Of a DNA stretch of 55,176 nucleotides, positions 36,796 through 46,650 are shown piece by piece. The number at the start of each line of letters is the position of its first letter. Within the stretch, counting starts at the first letter, position 1. The notes under the pieces are model-generated. The model worked only from the letters and a program-made list of their open reading frames with translations, made no database searches and was not told where the DNA came from. The translations under genes and the position numbers were made by a program. This stretch comes from Sergeia podlipaevii (Eukaryota; Euglenozoa; Kinetoplastea; Trypanosomatida; Trypanosomatidae): positions 1-55,176 of the forward strand of contig JASANZ010002151.1 of the NCBI GenBank assembly GCA_030849805.1. The letters run 5' to 3'.

Positions 36796-37029
36796 AGCGT
36801 GTACACGCATGATGGTGGTCTACCCGTGCTCTTGCAGTGGGTGCATTTATACGTGGTGTCTTTACTGATGTGCTGTTGGAGGTATGCTCACTCACTCACT
36901 CACACACACACACTACATGGCAGCGTGTTGGTTTACTTACTTTACCGTTTAGCTATTTTTATCCATTTTTTTTTTCCTTTTCTGAGTTGCATTTTGCACA
37001 TTACAAAGCGCGATTGGTAGCAGTTGTAG

Positions 37030-37048
37030 CGTGTCGAGACGCGACACG
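37030..37048. repeat. 19-bp arm-core-arm site in A1
   Basis: CGTGTCG-AGACG-CGACACG: 7-bp inverted arms around a 5-bp core. The A2 copy is its exact reverse complement, so the core is flipped. Confidence 0.8.
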
Positions 37049-37152
37049 AAGTGATCTATTACTTGGGTGTTGCTGTAGAGAAAAAGCTTAGGGACCGAGA
37101 GAGCGGTCATCCTAATTTTATATGACATTAAATATTATATGCGATTGTTATA

Positions 37153-37183
37153 ATCTCCTCCTTTTTGTTTTTACACCGCACAG
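37153..37183 (+). promoter_or_regulatory. Element's own spliced-leader acceptor
   Basis: CTCCTCCTTTTTGTTTTTACA followed by CCGCACAG, 69 bases before the ORF1 ATG. The equivalent site is conserved in A2 (about 41379-41402). Confidence 0.5.
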
Positions 37184-37251
37184 GGATAATAAATGTATAA
37201 AACTAGAAACTTTAGGACATATCTCGAGAATATTTTAAAACAGACCCAGCG

Positions 37252-38127
37252 ATGTCTCGTCTCGCAATTGATGACAGCATCGGCTGGTGTTCTATGGAAG
37301 ACGCAGTGCCTCGAGGGGCTGTTTTTATCAGCCCCAGCCCAGTGAGTGTCCCACATAGCATGGATGTTGTGTTGTGGGGGTCCAGTGAGCGTCTGTGTCG
37401 GCCAGCATTCAAGTACTTGATGCTAGAATTCATCGCGGAACCTCTGCCCCCTAACATGGAGCCTGTCCTTAATGATGGTAATGTTACCACATATAAGGCT
37501 GATGCACCATCCCCCCACGGACTTTTGAGACCGATAAGACGTGAGCCATCTGCTGAGCAGATGGTTGTTGTCGTGGAGGGTGATCTCTGCAGTTGTGGTC
37601 GTGTGCGGGCGAGAACGGAGACAGCTATCAATTGCTGCCGTCATGCAATAGATCAGATTCTGAGCCTACAACTGATCACCAGTGTGAACCACGAAGCATT
37701 GTTACGTTCTCGTGCGCAGAATGCCTCATCCTCTTGGGACAGATTAGATATGAGCGAGGAGGTGCTCCGAAACACCCGTCAGTTAGCGGACGTTATCGTT
37801 AACGCTCTGGTCACAGCAAAACAGGAAAACGTGAGGTTGAGGGAGTCGGGGATGGCCGGCATTTTGTGTACGGTTACGATGTCCGCGAAGGATTCCCCCT
37901 CAATGACCCATCACCTGGTCTACGAATCCAGACAAAACGCCGAAAAACTCGGAGAAAGCCCGTTGCATTTAGCGATCCTACGCTCCGGGTTTTGGGGACC
38001 CATGGTGAATTGTTCACGGGATTTAGGGCTGATAGGTCAAATCCGAACAATGTTATTAGCGGTATTCGTCATCACATTGGCTGCGATATGCCTGCTAAAA
38101 ACGAGAATAGCGTCGGGAAGTTTGTAA
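37252..38127 (+). CDS. Element ORF1, unknown (upstream partner of RdRp)
   Basis: A 291-residue ORF whose ATG is 12 bases after repeat A1. No domain is recognised. Residues 1-110 are mixed strands, and residues about 115-195 have a Cys-containing helix (CSCGRVRARTETAINCCRHA) and charged helices. The last ~97 codons overlap the RdRp frame and are probably not the main product. If the -1 frameshift at 37824-37830 is used, ORF1 residues 1-193 are fused to RdRp. It could be a gag-like protein of the retroelement or the ORF1 replicase co-factor of an RNA virus; the sequence alone does not decide. Confidence 0.6.
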   Translation: MSRLAIDDSIGWCSMEDAVPRGAVFISPSPVSVPHSMDVVLWGSSERLCRPAFKYLMLEFIAEPLPPNMEPVLNDGNVTTYKADAPSPHGLLRPIRREPSAEQMVVVVEGDLCSCGRVRARTETAINCCRHAIDQILSLQLITSVNHEALLRSRAQNASSSWDRLDMSEEVLRNTRQLADVIVNALVTAKQENVRLRESGMAGILCTVTMSAKDSPSMTHHLVYESRQNAEKLGESPLHLAILRSGFWGPMVNCSRDLGLIGQIRTMLLAVFVITLAAICLLKTRIASGSL

Positions 38128-39368
38128 ATTTTGCGCGCAAGTACTTCAATCGATTCAAGCCTGTTAACAGCTGGATCTCTCATGAAGAGTGGCTCAAGGG
38201 AACCTCATATAGTAAAAAAAGAAAGGAGCGGCTCATTCAAGCACACGCGAACTGCAGTGCCAATGAGAGAAGACACCCGTCAAGGTGTTTCAGTTTCATC
38301 AAAGATGAGGCCTACCAGGAAATCAAAGCGCCTCGCATTATCAGTTCCTACCCCGACTGGGTCAAATACGAACTCGGGCCATTCATCAAGTCCATTGAGA
38401 AGCGTTTCTTCGACAAAGAGTGCTTCGTCAAGGGGCGCAACAGTGCGGATCGTGACTCGATTCTTAGAGACAATATGTACGGCCCTGTGGGCTACACTGA
38501 CTTCTCTTCTTTCGAATGCCATCACGAGGGCGCTTACGCTGAGCTGTTTTGTGAGTTTGTGTTATATCTTTGTGGTGGGGTACGCAATCAAGAGTTTAAT
38601 CTATTTTCCACTCTTGTTCTTGGCTGCAACCATATGAAGTTCAGCCCTGTGGGTGTTCGTGCTCGCATTCACAGCCGCCTTATGTCTGGAGCTCCATGGA
38701 CGAGCTTACAAAATTCTTTTTTGAAAATTTTTATGCTCAAATATTTGAGAAGTTTAGCAGAAGGCCCCAGCTTTGACTTTGATAGGTTAGACACTCTTAT
38801 TGAGGGAGATGACGGTATTTTCCGCGCCTTTAGAATCAGACCAGCTGTGATATCTTCATTAGGATTGAAGCTTAAACTGAAATATGCTCGGAGTTACAGC
38901 TCAGCCTCATTCTGTGACCGAACTGTCACAGACAGCGGCGTTGTTGTTGACCCAATTTGGACTATCCAGAATTTGACTTGGATGCCTATTAAGTATTCTA
39001 AAAGTAGTCCCGGGCTTGTTAAAGGCTTGCTGAAAGCCAAAGCTATGTCCTTCCTGGAATCTTACAACGGTGCTCCTGTGGTAGCACTGTTATGCCATAA
39101 GATCATTGAATCCATGCGAGGAATTGACCACAGAAGAGGCGCTAAGCTCCTAGCTGACGGATATCACGGTATAGTCCTAAACGTCCCGTGTCTTGTTGAG
39201 CCAGACATTGAGTCTCGCATAAAATGCGAGGAGATGTTCGGTTTCACGGTGAATGACCAAATCGCCTGTGAGGAAGCTATAGACGCCTGGAATTTTGGTG
39301 AGGATTTGATCCTACCAATAGTTGTAAACCCTGAATGGGTTGAAAATGCCTACAAGGTGGCTGAGTAA
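37803..39368 (+). CDS. RNA-dependent RNA polymerase, tombus-/noda-like positive-strand RNA virus type
   Basis: An uninterrupted frame of 521 codons opening after a stop at 37800-37802. It has no ATG for its first ~95 codons, so expression by -1 frameshifting from ORF1 is likely. Polymerase motifs occur in the right order and spacing. Motif F is FIKDEAYQEIKAPRIISS (about 38295-38350), followed by a GPFIKSIEKRFF helix and CFVKGR. Motif A is TDFSSFECHH (38496-38525), motif B SGAPWTSLQNSF (38685-38720) and motif C EGDDG (38802-38816), then a KLKLKYARS motif-D-like stretch. The GDD and S-G-xxx-T-xxx-N patterns exclude a reverse transcriptase or tyrosine recombinase. Full-length and open, unlike the RT downstream. 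The nearest viral family cannot be fixed without a search. Confidence 0.85.
   Translation, partial: RSGHSKTGKREVEGVGDGRHFVYGYDVREGFPLNDPSPGLRIQTKRRKTRRKPVAFSDPTLRVLGTHGELFTGFRADRSNPNNVISGIRHHIGCDMPAKNENSVGKFVNFARKYFNRFKPVNSWISHEEWLKGTSYSKKRKERLIQAHANCSANERRHPSRCFSFIKDEAYQEIKAPRIISSYPDWVKYELGPFIKSIEKRFFDKECFVKGRNSADRDSILRDNMYGPVGYTDFSSFECHHEGAYAELFCEFVLYLCGGVRNQEFNLFSTLVLGCNHMKFSPVGVRARIHSRLMSGAPWTSLQNSFLKIFMLKYLRSLAEGPSFDFDRLDTLIEGDDGIFRAFRIRPAVISSLGLKLKLKYARSYSSASFCDRTVTDSGVVVDPIWTIQNLTWMPIKYSKSSPGLVKGLLKAKAMSFLESYNGAPVVALLCHKIIESMRGIDHRRGAKLLADGYHGIVLNVPCLVEPDIESRIKCEEMFGFTVNDQIACEEAIDAWNFGEDLILPIVVNPEWVENAYKVAE
37824..37903 (+). promoter_or_regulatory. Candidate -1 ribosomal frameshift signal
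   Basis: The heptamer G GAA AAC (37824-37830) is in the ORF1 frame, similar in design to the dianthovirus GGATTTT site. A 6-base spacer is followed by TTGAGGG (37837-37843), which pairs perfectly with CCCTCAA (37897-37903). The RdRp frame opens 22 bases upstream of the heptamer. Confidence 0.55.
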
Positions 39369-40978
39369 CCTTGTTATATGTTGCCTGGTTTGGGGCCTTT
39401 AATTCAACCACTTCCTGCCTTCATCCACAAGAAAAAAGGGAGGACTTGCAGGCAGCATTGACCAGGGGAAAGTTTGAGGAAGTTCCGAGGCTCCTCGGCC
39501 GCCGACTCCCCAGAGGTTTCCATGGTGTGAACGTTTTCACTCTCCCCGAGATGAAGGGAAGAAGACGTCTCATCACCGAACCTCACCTAAATGCCCCCAT
39601 CCGAAAGGAAGAACTCCCCCGAATGAGGTATCCATCGCGACTGGAGAGAAGACAGAGCTTGCGGTATGCGAAGTACATGATACAGATCGACTTTGAGGCA
39701 TATTACGACGCGTTACCTCTACCCGAAAACGCCCGCGACAAGTTCTTTTTTTCGCATCGCGGGAGGACGCCATTTCCGTCTCACGACGATCCCCACTGGC
39801 GCAAGATGGAGCGTGGCAATTGGTCAATCAATCACGAACGTGACTGTCGATATCCCGACTACCGTTACCATACACACCTATATCGATAACATCCTGATTG
39901 CCGCGCCTGAAGGTAAGGAGACAGAGTTCCTCGAGACAGTAAGGGCAATCCTGCGCAGGATACGAGTAGCTAACCTTCTAACGAGTCCAGACAGAGAGGA
40001 GTCACTTGAGAAAACGGACGGGGAGTTACTTAGGCTGTCCACAGACAGGCAGACGTTTATTGGGGAGGAATTTAGCTGGAGCGGCAGAGAACGCTTCGTG
40101 AAAAACTCAGTAAATGCCGTTTCCAAACTGGCCCTCGCGCTTCAGGCTCACGACTTCACATGCTGATCCTTCATATCCCTATTATCATTGGAGATGTATG
40201 CGCTTCACACGACTAGGCTCAATCCAGCACAGTATTTCCATCTCCTGAGGGCTTATAGAGGTGTGTATCGCGCGGTCGACCGCGGAAGACACCGGGGCTC
40301 TCCGCTCCCTTATATCAACGATAGGGTTAGAGACCTCATGCTGACCCTTGGCGAACGGCTGGTAGCAAACGAATGGTGGGAGATCGTCCCCAGATTCAGG
40401 CAACCTGCGAGGATGAGGAGTATGATGCAATAAGCTACACAGACGCATCCGCAGAAGGCTGGGGAGCTATCACACAATGGAGAAACGGCCCTTCATTCAC
40501 CTACCAGAAGCGATGGATCAGTGACCTCCATAGGGGTCCGGAAGCACCTCCTCCGAGGGAGCAAGACCGCACGAGACATTTCACTGCAAAACACTCTGCC
40601 CACGCTGAGCCACGGGTCATCGAGGAGCTGCTGAGAGTATTAATAAGACGAAACCCACAAGGGGGTCAAAAATGGGCTGTAGTTACTGATCACATCGCCA
40701 TCGTCCGCGCGCAGAGAAGAATGAATGGATATGGCAGCATTCGCAGGGGCTATGCGCCAAACAAGCTCTTTGAACTCACCAATAAGTTACTCCACGAACA
40801 CAATATTCTTGTGGTTTTCTTCTACCTTGCAGGCGAGTGCAATCCAGCTGACACAGTATCTAGATACTTTGGCGAAGACGAAACTGAAATACCGCAGCTC
40901 CTAGAAAGGCCCGCAAATAATATAACTGTACCACTGCTGAAATACACTTACTCGCCACTATGCGAAAGCGATGCTTGA
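39365..40978 (+). pseudogene. VIPER/DIRS-like reverse transcriptase-RNase H, broken in three segments
   Basis: Three consecutive pieces encode one RT/RNase H. Segment 1 (39365-about 39755, frame 2) carries VFTLPEMKGRRRLITEPHLN and MIQIDFEAYYDALPL (RT motif A). Segment 2 (about 39755-40415, frame 3) carries FRLTTIPTGARWSVAIGQ (motif B) and YIDN (39879-39890, YxDD position). It also has an in-frame TGA at 40164-40166. Segment 3 (about 40415-40978, frame 2) carries RNase H TDASAEGWGA (Asp at 40442) and NPADTVSRYFG (Asp at 40850). The first frame change falls at a run of seven T (39745-39751), one more than an unbroken frame would have. The first segment has no early ATG. Degradation, sequencing error or recoding are all possible. 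Confidence 0.8.
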
Positions 40979-41135
40979 CCTGATGGGATATCAAATTCAA
41001 ATCCGCCTACCTAAACCAATTAGAACGCAGAGGCTAGCTGATGGGACACGGAGAGCAGTCGTCCACAAATCTATTGAGATCTCCTATGAGAGCGAAGTCC
41101 CTGATGTGTGGGAGAGAGCGACATTAATGCGCTAG
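40971..41135 (+). CDS. Small element ORF overlapping the RT-RNase H stop and running into B1
   Basis: A 54-codon ORF starting in the ATGCTTGA overlap with the RT/RNase H stop and ending in TAG at 41133-41135. Its last ~30 codons lie in repeat B1. The corresponding segment of B2 keeps the same frame and stop with only conservative changes (WERATLMR versus WDRAALMR). Function unknown. It may be the remnant of a larger C-terminal ORF, or simply repeat sequence that stays open. Confidence 0.35.
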   Translation: MLDLMGYQIQIRLPKPIRTQRLADGTRRAVVHKSIEISYESEVPDVWERATLMR

Positions 41136-41208
41136 CATGGAAGCTCGATTGACCTGCACGTCCTTTCTTCTATTCCTCCCTTTTTATTATTACATAGGAA
41201 ATCGACAA
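41043..41208 (+). repeat. Split direct repeat B1
   Basis: 166 bp, nearly identical to 41652-41817, from GGGACACGGAGAGCAGTCGT to ATAGGAAATCGACAA. Only a handful of substitutions are visible. Confidence 0.9.
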
Positions 41209-41210
41209 AG

Positions 41211-41230
41211 CACAACCGCTAGCGGTTGTG
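41211..41230. repeat. 20-bp perfect palindrome at the B1/A2 junction
   Basis: CACAACCGCTAGCGGTTGTG equals its own reverse complement. The A1 counterpart (37009-37028) has lost the symmetry by substitutions. Confidence 0.85.
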
Positions 41231-41231
41231 G

Positions 41232-41250
41232 CGTGTCGCGTCTCGACACG
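41232..41250. repeat. 19-bp arm-core-arm site in A2 (flipped core)
   Basis: CGTGTCG-CGTCT-CGACACG, the exact reverse complement of 37030-37048. Confidence 0.8.
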
Positions 41251-41651
41251 AAGTGAGCTATTACTTGGGTGTTGCTGTAGAGCATGAGTACGTGGAGACC
41301 TGGAAAGCGGTCACCCGACATAATTATATGTCATAATTATTTGTTATCCCCGAACCTCCTACTAAACCGTCTACCCTCCTCCCCTTTTGTGTTTACACAG
41401 CACAGGGATAAGAAATATCAAACGAGGAACTTTAGGGCATACATCAAAAATATTTTAAAAACACCCGCCCGCCCACCGCAAAGGCATATGAATACATATA
41501 TGTAGATAATCATAAGCAACTGAAACAAAAAGAAAACGGAAACAATCTTAAACAAAGAGGAAAAAAAAATTAATCAATCATTTTTACTGATTTCGCACAT
41601 GAGTCTATTGAAAGCTCACGGCCTCCGGTGGATGGGGGCAGCCATCCCCCG

Positions 41652-41817
41652 GGGACACGGAGAGCAGTCGTCCACAAATCTATTGAGATCTCCTATGAGA
41701 GCGAAGTCCCTGATGTGTGGGACAGAGCGGCACTAATGCGCTAGCATGGAAGCTCGATTCACCTGCACGTCCTTTCTTCTAGTCCTCCCCTTTTATTATT
41801 ACATAGGAAATCGACAA
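41652..41817 (+). repeat. Split direct repeat B2 (3' end of the element)
   Basis: The second B copy, ending ATCGACAA before a TA-rich host flank. A2 and B2 are separated by about 190 bp of A-rich sequence that includes a small GC-rich hairpin (GATGG...CCATC near 41632-41647). Confidence 0.9.
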
Positions 41818-42258
41818 TATATATATATCTATATATGCATTTTTCTCTTCTTGTAGGCAGTGTTTGTAGTGATAGTGGTGGCGCTAGTCTTCATTGCTTA
41901 CCAGTGGGCATTTCATATTGATGATCTGTTTGTATCAAATCGTTGTTTTGTGGGGGAGCTATGAAGTGGGCTATGCTAGTTTACGGTTTCTTTCTCTTTG
42001 TTTCTTTTCATGAGCTACACAACTTTCCATTCTTGCCTTTTTCATTCTTTTTTTTTTTTTTCTTCATCCCTACTAATCTTTTTTTTTTTTTTCAAACATT
42101 TAAAAATGGAGAATCTTCTATAGTTTATAAAAGCTCCCCAATTGACAAACTAGAATTATTTTTCCCTCTTTTTTTTACCCACAAGGAACTTATCTCCGCA
42201 CCAAAGCAAAAAAAAAAAAAAAGAAATAAGACAGCAAACATTATCTTTTTTTTTTACA
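41818..42258 (+). other. Intergenic, leader of the reticulon gene
   Basis: No gene seen. Pyrimidine tracts with TTGTAGGCAG near 41860 and long T runs at 42050-42095. The element's B2 end lies only about 440 bases upstream of the reticulon ATG. Confidence 0.55.
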
Positions 42259-43323: not shown

Positions 43324-45411
43324 ATGGCTGGTCAGAAGTACTGTTGATACTTTTTTTTTCTTGCCCATTCATTTTGCTTTTGTGTTGAACTATCGTGGCG
43401 AACGAACAAAAAGAAATTATATATTCCAGGCCGTCAAGTTACTGAGAGGCTATCACTACTGTTCGTTCTTCTTTTAAACATCAGTACCTCTTTTGTTAAG
43501 ACAATCCTGCCTACGTGAGCATGTATGGGAGTGTATATATTGGCGCGTGTGCGCACACACCATTACATCTTGTTTTTCTCTCTCTCTGAGGGACAGGGAG
43601 AAGGCATTTTTGATATAGGATGTCTGCATCCTTAGGAATCACCAATCGGATATACTAAAATGGTGACACAAATGCTTTATACATTGTTTATTTATTTATT
43701 TTTATATATTGACATGGATTGAGAGGTGTAGTGTTGTTTGCTGCGTGCTTTTGGAAGCAAGAAACCGATATCGATGACGAAAAAAAAAAAGGAAGGAAGG
43801 AAAAAAGAATATTAGCGTTGTGATACATACCTTTTATGGAGGAGCTTCTGCTCGTGTGAAGAAGGAAAGGGGTGGGGACACTCGGTATCTGCTGTGACTA
43901 TAGCGATTGTTCGCTCATTTAACATGATCAACTCAACCAGTACGTACGCACAGTATATGCTTAGGTTTTTTTTTTTTTTGAAAAGAACACACACACACAT
44001 ATATATATATATAATGATGATGATGAATGTCTCAATATTGCTAGCAAAGTTTGTGTATGTGTGAAGAGATACATATTGAGAGAGAAGGGAGAAGGGGAGG
44101 GGGTACGCGTGCCTTCTTAGCAAACAACTATTTTTGTTGGCAGCGAGCTGGGAATTGTGTCGTGGGGAGGAGGCAGGAAGGGGGGGGGGGGAATACCCCC
44201 CTACTTTTACCACTGACACCAGCACGCTACTCTTTCTTTGTGTTGTAGGTTACTCTCCCTGTCTTGTTATTGTTACTATTTTTTATTATTATTTTGGAGG
44301 AAGTGATGAAACGTTTGATATGAACCACTGTAGAAATGAAAGAACAAGGAAAGCGTGCAACATGCTCACTTTGTTATTGCGCAATTTTTTTTTTCTTTTC
44401 CCACTTGCTGGTGAGAACAGTGTAGAAGCTAACTTCTGCTTGACCAATTATGGAGACGAAAAACACTGTTTTTTTTTTCGTGCTGTTTACCACTTCATTC
44501 ATATATTTACGTTTATCTGTGTTTTCTTTTGCGGTGCATTCTGTGAACATTCATACACACACACACACACACACACATACAGAGGATTATAATATATCTT
44601 GATTGCATACACATACACATTCCAGAATCATACGTGCGAGTGCGTGCGTTTGATACAACAACATCAATAAAAGGCAAGCTTTAGTGTCATACATAGCTAG
44701 GTATAAATAAAGAAGCAAAACAATATCAAGAACAAGAGAAGGTTTTGAAGACGGGCAAAATAGGAGAAAACGCATACGCACACACAGGGAGACGTACTTG
44801 AGGCTCCTCAAGCTTGTCTTTGCTAAATCTATTTCTTCAACAAGAAAAAAGGGAATCTCTTTTTAAGGAGAACCTTCATACTGTTAACGTCATATACACG
44901 AAGAGAAGGAAAGAACTGATTCGCGTTCCCCCCCCCTCTTCTTCTTCTCTCTCTCTCTCTCTCTCTCTTTCCGCCGCAATCACATATTTCATCTTTTATT
45001 TCCGTTTATCCATTCAATTCTGGTCACACACACACACACACAGTTCCTCACAAAATAAAAGGAGTGGGTGAGCGTGTTTACACCTGCCTTTTTTTCCCCT
45101 TTTTCCTGCTGCATAGTGTAGAATAGTTACGTTTTAGTTCTGTAAGAGCGAAACATTGGGTTCTAGTACCAGCAAACAGGACTCNGTATCTACCCCCCCC
45201 CCCTCACCCCATCCTTCTCCTCATACCCATCTTTGTTGTGGTGTGCAATAAAATAACAAAATAACATTAAAAGCATCTCTCCGCTCTGTGTGTTATCTAT
45301 TTACAGGAGACATTTTAGTAGACGCATTCTCTCCTCCCTTTTTTTCCTCTTTCTCTCTCTCTTTCTTCCTCTTTTTTTTTCTTTTTTTTTTCTGAAAACG
45401 ATCATCGCGTC
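42919..45411 (+). other. Long intergenic region (2.5 kb), no gene seen
   Basis: Rich in microsatellites: (TA)16 at 43288-43320, (CA)n near 44555-44577, (CT)n near 44947-44968 and CA near 45026-45042. It also has a G run at 44179-44190, a C run at 45193-45202 and the ambiguous base at 45185. ORFs here are low-complexity. No RNA gene was recognised. Confidence 0.6.
43288..43320. repeat. (TA)16 microsatellite
   Basis: 33 bases of alternating T and A, the longest dinucleotide tract in the window. Confidence 0.9.
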
Positions 45412-46650
45412 ATGTCTAAGGTGGTTTGTACATTCCGTGGCGTGGACGAGATAGACAATGGCCTTGAGAAGCTTGATGAAACTAAGGTGCAGCTGCTTTT
45501 CTCAAAGTTTCCCGTTGGCACTGGTACCTTCAAGCGCAACAAGTTCATTTACGTTCAGTACACGGGGCCAAAATGCAGCATTGTGAAACGTGGGCAGGGC
45601 ATTAACGTCATAAACAGCTTTGCGACGAGCCACCTCAACGGCGTCCCAGGCTTCTCCACTACCGACAAGCAGTCCCTTTCGTTTGAGTCTCTCATTCAGC
45701 AGATGAAGCATGTATTCATCAGGGATAACGGTGTGTTCTCCATGGAACAGATTCGCAGCGAGTACAAGAACCGACTTCTTGAAGACAAGAAGATGATGCA
45801 TCGTGAAAACAAGCAGGCGGCTTTAGCTGCCAAGGCCAAGGAGGCCGCAAAAGCCTCCAAGAAGCCACAGGTGACCAAGGTGCAACGTCCTATATCACCA
45901 CGACCACCGCAGCCCTTATCGATGCTTAACGGAACAGGTTCGAACCCACAGGAGTGGTCGGCTGCTGCTAAGCGCATTGTGGAGAGCCTGCGCAGTGACA
46001 ATGGCCCAGTGAACTGGGCTGTCTTTGCCGCCGATCCCTCTACTCCGCACGTTCTGTCTTACGGCCACTGTGGCATCTTTGAGCTTGTCAAGAATCTTCC
46101 AGAAGACCAATGGCTTTTTGGCCTTTTCCGCATTTCTTTTATGATCAAAGGTGAGCGTCAGCGGAGGATGATCTTCTTCCAGTGGATTGGGAGCCAGCTC
46201 AAGCCGGTGCGCTCATCCAGCACGTCTGGAGTGTACCCAGGCATGGCCAAACTTCTTTCTCCTTACTCCTATGAGATCTACCTTGTTGGCAAGGCCGACT
46301 TGAATGCACAGAAGATTATCGATAAGTCCAAGAATGCGTTTCGAGAGACGAGGAAAGGTGGAAGCTCAGGGGATATGCCGGTCATCGAGTTCACAGAGGC
46401 CTCGTACAAGGCGACGCTGGAGCAGGAGCAGGATGAGATGAAGGAGGTGGTAGTCGTGGAGCAGCACGGGCGCACTGCAAAGCAAAAGATGAGTAGTGTA
46501 GTGCTTGATGGCGGTCTAGAGCAGAGTCTTGCGTCCATGTCTGTGGCAGGGGTAACCACCGCCGGTAACTTCGATATTGACGAGACGATTGAACTTGTGC
46601 AGGCTGAACAAGGGGGACTCGTGTGGGCAATCTTCCAGGTAGCGGATTAA
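45412..46650 (+). CDS. Double ADF-H (coactosin/twinfilin-like) actin-binding protein
   Basis: A 412-residue protein, ATG at 45412. Two ADF-homology-like domains are visible. Domain 1 (1-130) has FSKFPVGTGTFKRNKFIYVQYTGP and a SLSFESLIQQMKHVF helix. Domain 2 (about 185-315) has NWAVFAADPSTPHVLSYGHC, then RRMIFFQWIG and the long actin-binding-type helix region. Both have coactosin-like strand order, with YVQYTGPKC and FFQWIGSQL as the central strands. They are joined by a Lys/Ala-rich helix, and a third short part (320-412) ends in WAIFQVAD. Actin binding is likely but not certain. Two coactosin-like domains in one chain differs from twinfilin by linker and length. Confidence 0.7.
   Translation: MSKVVCTFRGVDEIDNGLEKLDETKVQLLFSKFPVGTGTFKRNKFIYVQYTGPKCSIVKRGQGINVINSFATSHLNGVPGFSTTDKQSLSFESLIQQMKHVFIRDNGVFSMEQIRSEYKNRLLEDKKMMHRENKQAALAAKAKEAAKASKKPQVTKVQRPISPRPPQPLSMLNGTGSNPQEWSAAAKRIVESLRSDNGPVNWAVFAADPSTPHVLSYGHCGIFELVKNLPEDQWLFGLFRISFMIKGERQRRMIFFQWIGSQLKPVRSSSTSGVYPGMAKLLSPYSYEIYLVGKADLNAQKIIDKSKNAFRETRKGGSSGDMPVIEFTEASYKATLEQEQDEMKEVVVVEQHGRTAKQKMSSVVLDGGLEQSLASMSVAGVTTAGNFDIDETIELVQAEQGGLVWAIFQVAD

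Follow-up and report, generated by a model that had tools for sequence, protein, structure and literature searches.

A tombus-like virus segment lying inside a VIPER-type retroelement of the trypanosomatid Sergeia podlipaevii

The 55,176-nucleotide contig JASANZ010002151.1 of Sergeia podlipaevii (assembly GCA_030849805.1), the whole of which is the window considered here, carries a VIPER-type retroelement at 37003-41817 with a virus-derived segment inside it. By its sequence, the segment encodes an RNA-dependent RNA polymerase (RdRp) that is viral and tombus-like, and it occupies the place of gag, the tyrosine recombinase (YR) and the start of the reverse transcriptase (RT) gene. We consider it probable that this is an endogenous viral element (EVE), namely a portion of the large RNA segment from a trypanosomatid tombus-like virus, made into DNA by a template-switching VIPER-type RT. 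A preliminary description of the window had recognized an RdRp with motifs F, A, B and C and an RT remnant in one element, and that much holds: the RdRp scores over the cut-off of Pfam RdRP_1, its motifs stand in a 40-row alignment, and over 39438-41208 the window shares 95% identity with a copy on contig C573 that carries RT. The span then given, 37252..41135, is inside the element, but the element is wider; and although the recombinase has been replaced as claimed, gag and the start of RT are missing too. Among the origins offered at that time, capture of viral cDNA by a retroelement is the best fit, with a virus segment that VIPER repeats enclose and that has one junction within the RT gene.

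The element and its breakpoints

VIPER is a DIRS-like YR retrotransposon of kinetoplastids with A1 at its 5' end and B1, A2 and B2 at its 3' end, according to the available text of PMC12278014 and PMC6681497. The present element is like VIPER in the order A1 ... B1-A2 ... B2, in having RT with RNase H, and in the lack of a target duplication visible by eye; it differs in that virus-derived sequence replaces gag, YR and the start of RT, and in that its A1 comes from another lineage. Both termini are proper VIPER ends. The left ends of VIPER copies read AAGC in 9 of 10 listed places, after variable bases, and the right ends read GACAA in 10 of 14. Since no match to a gag-like or YR family appears in the five window open reading frames (ORFs) scanned, we regard the element as a VIPER-derived chimera and not as an autonomous VIPER. 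Within A1, a polypyrimidine tract followed by AG at 37182-37183 resembles a trans-splice acceptor by eye.

The 3' breakpoint is placed by the C573 copy, which runs through the start of RT without an RdRp. The window and C573 can be aligned from 39438 rightward and are unalike leftward, where the viral side ends in A6 at the close of the 69 noncoding bases that follow the RdRp stop. No RT sequence was found to the left of this junction. Two more distant RT copies, on C376 and C418, run past the breakpoint into other sequence, by eye, again without an RdRp. At the 5' breakpoint, the window departs from the other copies at the end of the A repeat, where the sequence is TATTTTAAAA. The DNA in between (37241-39370 and 39366-39437) matches only itself in the assembly. 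The check proposed earlier, for further copies of the RdRp between A and B repeats, thus gave none, the RdRp and its DNA being found once in the assembly.

A DNA search of the assembly with 39365-41820 returns at least 25 matches, the window's own two included, the longest others being on C573 (95%) and C267 (93%). The C573 copy fits A, an ORF in the place of gag (no Pfam match), RT and B into 3.5 kb. Those on C90, C511 and C353 are A-spacer-B copies of SIRE-like form, and those on C376 and C418 (L047 and L046) are VIPER/TATE-like. In the window's RT, the stretch 39693-40166 matches RVT_1 at 6e-4, which is under the Pfam cut-off. The earlier statement that RdRp is intact over more than 500 codons while RT is broken stands, with 521 codons from stop to stop in the former and, in the latter, a +1 frameshift at 39746, a TGA at 40164-40166 and a -1 frameshift at 40387. 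All three lesions are private to the window copy relative to C573 and C267, which bear lesions of their own; the two indels are of one base each, both in homopolymers, and are possible sequencing errors. Substitutions private to the window copy in the same comparison number 47 at 1,719 sites. A hybrid replicon using both RdRp and RT had also been put forward. Both types of polymerase do lie between the ends of one element, but the joined unit is found once and not in several copies, its RT is broken, gag and recombinase are absent from it, and the other RT copies found are all without an RdRp, so we give this idea next to no credence.

The A and B repeats are real, but they do not form the one set of split direct repeats first described. 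B1 and B2 are 96% identical (6 of 166 sites differ, 95% limits 1.3-7.7%; Kimura two-parameter distance, K2P, 0.037), whereas A1 and A2 are 74% identical (K2P 0.322). In an alignment with six of the nine other listed A copies, three partial ones being excluded, A1 is 76-80% identical to the five besides A2 and stands at K2P 0.24-0.32 from all six. A2 is 89-91% identical (K2P 0.10-0.12) to the copies on C573, C284, C90 and C511 and 76% (K2P 0.30) to that on C353. Since A1 is far from all six and A2 is near four of them, A1 comes from another VIPER lineage, and the A1/A2 divergence therefore gives no insertion date. Coordinates are collected in Table 1.

Table 1. Features of the chimeric element, in window coordinates.
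Feature	Position	Strand	Remarks
A1, left VIPER repeat	37003..37240	+	divergent lineage; repeat search; left end matches other copies
5' breakpoint	37240..37241	+	end of A repeat in other copies; comparison of copies
Virus-derived segment	37241..39437	+	2,197 bases; VIPER sequence on either side
ORF1	37252..38127	+	291 codons; overlaps ORF2 in -1 frame; hydrophobic stretch near C-terminus
ORF2, RdRp	37803..39368	+	open stop to stop, 521 codons
Candidate -1 frameshift heptamer GGATTTA	38019..38025	+	ORF1 phase; sequence scan
RdRp motif F block, KDEAYQEIKAPR	38301..38336	+	invariant K146, E148, R157
RdRp motif A, TDFSSFE	38496..38516	+	invariant D212, E217
RdRp motif B, RLMSGAPWTSLQNSF	38676..38720	+	invariant L272-G275, T279, S280, N283
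RdRp motif C, EGDD	38802..38813	+	invariant E313-D316
3' breakpoint, virus-derived sequence to VIPER RT	39437..39438	+	comparison with C573
Truncated VIPER RT/RNase H	39438..40978	+	RNase H by eye, without Pfam match
B1 repeat	41043..41208	+	repeat search
A2 repeat	41205..41460	+	main VIPER lineage of the genome; repeat search, alignment
B2 repeat	41652..41817	+	right end of element; repeat search

The RdRp and the frame upstream of it

ORF2 has a candidate GTG start at 37866, which gives a protein of 500 amino acids (37866-39368), and its first in-frame ATG is codon 75 counted from that GTG. It matches Pfam RdRP_1 at 1.4e-5 (24.5 bits; cut-off 23.9) and RdRP_4 at 5e-4, under the cut-off. Up to an E of 10 these are its only Pfam matches, with none to the cellular RdRP family of RNA interference (RNAi) type, and for want of a match to that eukaryotic family a cellular identity was rejected. 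The assembly has no further RdRP_1 match at E<=0.01. A search with this family (PF00680) finds a match in one of 14 named control genomes as well (Methanosarcina acetivorans), and a PF00680 score alone is no proof.

The closer evidence comes from relatives. A phmmer search with ORF2 recovered 52 of 4,600 candidate proteins at E<=1, the best at 1.1e-122; the match bearing a virus name is Leuven tombus-like virus 6 (P0005), an exogenous virus, at 43% identity. The window and 39 of the 52 matches were aligned in 40 rows, in which 28 invariant columns are common to ORF2; they include those of motifs A, B and C and of the motif F block. In the tree of these rows, for which the bootstrap had not settled, ORF2 falls with Leuven tombus-like virus 6 in a clade of seven (support 99/97), and its nearest row is P0002, at 53% over 365 columns. 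No tree row is named LeppyrTLV1, and the sequence of that virus was not identified among the hits. The 40-row profile matches 12 viral RdRp chains among solved structures at 9e-5 to 8e-4, including NS5B of classical swine fever virus; ORF2 as a single sequence matches nothing there. Scans of IMG/VR gave 3 pattern matches with the RdRp and 14 with a 10-row alignment, and no relative. On the profile search that the preliminary description had named as its test, then, ORF2 is placed among RdRps by both Pfam RdRP_1 and the tombus-like clade.

ORF1 has no homologue among 1,648 candidates. It is probably the viral 5' ORF, since the 3.5 kb large segment of LeppyrTLV1 has two overlapping ORFs, one for an unidentified protein and one for RdRp (available text of PMC10496375). 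The overlap of ORF1 with the RdRp resembles that arrangement, LeppyrTLV1 itself being an exogenous RNA, and ORF1 may be 5'-truncated. In its nonoverlapping part, codon usage scored against ORF2 gives 0.018 bits/codon in its own frame and -0.475 and -0.445 in the others, with a shuffled control at a mean of -0.28 (sd 0.08). Within the overlap, stops in the ORF1 frame are modestly rarer than chance, with P from 0.09 to 0.001 according to the test. A local codon shuffle to 38124 gives P 0.09. Under synonymous resampling, which involves no choice of end point, a first stop-free run of 107 codons has P 0.046, a longest run of 169 codons P 0.010, and a longest run of 276 codons that includes one stop P 0.0014. 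A shuffle that takes its codons from the entire ORF gives P 0.0086 and 0.0002 for the stretches to 38126 and 38636. Further shuffles to 38126 (P 0.037, 0.047) are biased by the addition of the codon leading into the stop with the stop itself uncounted, and those to 38636 (P 0.003-0.009) have an end point chosen after seeing the data. Taken over all of ORF2, stops in this frame are not depleted (22 seen, 20.6 expected).

The ORF1 frame closes at 38125 and is then open to 38635 (window 38128-38637, 169 codons), with a hydrophobic end; the stop at 38125 may be the viral end or a later lesion. Besides the heptamer in Table 1, the scan found GGAAAAC at 37824 and AAGTTTG at 38118. Those at 37824 and 38019 are in the right phase and, as candidates, could act as -1 shift sites; the folds downstream of these two do not surpass those of shuffled sequences (z 0.04 to -1.03). 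An ATG at 37193-37195 in A1 lies upstream of ORF1, out of frame by eye, and is not in the six other aligned A copies. It might hinder ORF1 translation.

Origin, age and chromosomal setting

From these junctions we infer an order of events and the enzyme used. RT would have copied VIPER RNA from its 3' end, through B2, A2, B1, RNase H and part of RT, then jumped at 39437/39438 onto the 3' part of the viral RNA and copied the RdRp and ORF1. By switching templates once more, at 37240/37241, it would have added the A1 end of another VIPER lineage, and the circle would have been integrated by a YR supplied in trans. Afterwards the copy, presumably inactive, would have decayed slowly as an immobile passenger. 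Possible trans sources are present in the assembly in the related copies on C376 and C418, whose RT frames of 559 and 543 codons are open at the contig end; the former has a weak YR match (0.006, under the cut-off).

Several observations sit uneasily with this scheme. C573 is the lone close copy spanning the 3' breakpoint, the copies on C267 and C284 beginning to the right of it, at 39487 (contig end) and 40541. The 5' breakpoint falls exactly at a repeat boundary. Also, A1 is only 74% like A2 although B1 and B2 are 96% alike, a contrast that excludes one simple copying of one template and calls for a second donor or event. We therefore weighed a composite of at least two DNA-level events, in which viral cDNA lay beside an old remnant of A1 type and a younger VIPER copy later became attached to the right of it by fusion or gene conversion. 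The distance of A1 from the six other A copies, with A2, B1, B2 and RT all of the main lineage, speaks for such a history, and a 41-base flank common to C284 is a sign of further rearrangement. But the right junction falls within the RT frame and no RT sequence turned up to the left of it, a pattern not expected of homologous conversion; both element ends, moreover, are proper VIPER ends. We think this composite history rather unlikely.

The 41-base piece, at 41819..41859 (+) just right of B2, is common only to the flank of the C284 VIPER copy (C284:17953-17993). A two-base difference in a TA run adjoins the C284 counterpart, with divergence beyond, and the piece ends just after a polypyrimidine-AG. 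It has the appearance of either 3' transduction or an imprecise excision.

The preliminary description also took the intactness of the RdRp as a hint of selection, and proposed that it had been domesticated. Neutral decay was considered at two ages, 1.85% (from B1/B2) and 2.7% (older, RT-based). In simulation, the probability that ORF2 gains no stop is 0.35 and 0.22, respectively; the chance that it escapes indels is 0.29 and 0.17. With both ORFs counted, the values are 0.21 and 0.10 for stops and 0.19 and 0.09 for indels. Multiplying stop and indel values gives products of about 0.10 and 0.04 for ORF2 and about 0.04 and 0.01 for both ORFs, and these rest on two homopolymer indels that are possible sequencing errors and on an age that is loose, given the B1/B2 limits. 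In the 10-row alignment, 71 sites are invariant in the other nine rows, and the window differs at 5 of them, tied for the highest (others 1-5), which indicates neither extra constraint nor clear decay. With combined probabilities of 0.01-0.10 and no extra conservation, the intact frames beside a broken RT give a weak hint of selection on the RdRp.

A domesticated RdRp might, for instance, feed host RNA silencing or interfere with related viruses. The host does have an Argonaute-like gene with PAZ and Piwi domains (L057, on C361) and a second gene with Piwi only (L056, on C291), from which RNAi may be present; the Piwi family search also matches in one of 14 named control genomes (Methanocaldococcus jannaschii). 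The catalytic motifs are kept in a frame free of stops over its 521 codons, the adjoining RT has three private lesions, the products for both ORFs are low, and the element has the same orientation as the neighboring genes. Set against these are the milder products for ORF2 alone with the cautions just given, the departures at invariant sites, and the lack of a second copy or ortholog from which to compute nonsynonymous against synonymous change (dN/dS). ORF2 moreover lacks an ATG until codon 75, and ORF1 is preceded by an ATG in another frame. We conclude that domestication is not supported and is quite improbable.

The window is the whole of contig C452 in an assembly of 23.39 Mb and 576 contigs. 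All 18 of its ORFs of at least 230 codons are on the + strand, a layout that likens it to a polycistronic gene cluster. On one side of the element is a gene whose transferase match is below threshold, and on the other a reticulon gene; an FTHFS gene is a further neighbor. The protein encoded at 45412-46650, 3.6 kb right of the element, groups with trypanosomatids. Its best matches (50-58%, the nearest protein at 58%) are in Leptomonas, Lotmaria, Strigomonas, Novymonas, Leishmania, Angomonas and relatives, with 40-44% in Phytomonas and 38-41% in Trypanosoma, and in its tree it lies neither within Trypanosoma nor, at support 84, within Phytomonas. As assembled, then, the virus segment is integrated in a trypanosomatid chromosome. 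Flank searches of the assembly found no second haplotype or empty site. VIPER copies do break contigs elsewhere (C267, C376, C418 and C570), which raises the question whether the assembler joined a VIPER copy to a viral insertion. But the RT is a distinct copy by its private substitutions, the sole N in the window is at 45185, outside the element, and the flanks are unique in the assembly over 403 bases on the left and 423 on the right, except for the 41 shared with C284. We hold an assembly chimera to be highly improbable.

Relation to other viral elements and significance

Tombus-like EVEs have been described before in trypanosomatids. In Blastocrithidia triatomae, BtriTLV-EVE is a partial tombus-like RdRp ORF of 119 codons near TATE in a subtelomere, and its authors regarded their data as consistent with the transposon having captured, reverse-transcribed and integrated the sequence (available text of PMC11108086). 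The likeness is that of a tombus-like RdRp beside a YR retroelement, there TATE, in a trypanosomatid genome; here, the sequence is about 2.2 kb long with the RdRp frame open, VIPER repeats enclose it, one of its junctions is within the RT gene, and housekeeping genes surround the element. In Leptomonas pyrrhocoris, LeppyrTLV-EVE is homologous to the virus large segment and is likewise near TATE (available text of PMC11108086, PMC10496375 and PMC8472099). Compared by description, it too is a tombus-like EVE, and VIPER goes unmentioned in the available accounts of it. We found no report of an RdRp inside VIPER among titles and abstract openings of the open-licence literature, and neither 'RdRp' nor 'RNA virus' occurs in the available text of PMC12278014 and PMC6681497. 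The capture route was thus already proposed for tombus-like EVEs near TATE; here it is extended to VIPER, which encloses the virus sequence. The present case is the stronger one because the virus sequence is inside the element's repeats and joined within the RT gene.

One could go further and suppose that VIPER-type elements are a standing route for banking RNA-virus genomes, the banked, still open RdRp and ORF1 being transcribed along with the surrounding gene cluster and used by the Argonaute system of the host against related viruses. We regard that as speculative and improbable, though a link to RNA silencing through the two Piwi-domain genes is possible. How an RNA virus without its own RT becomes DNA in protists has been inferred mostly from viral elements near retroelements. 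A breakpoint within the RT gene makes the responsible enzyme and the template switch directly testable, and the segment suggests that another trypanosomatid lineage, one possessing Piwi-domain genes, was once infected by a tombus-like virus.

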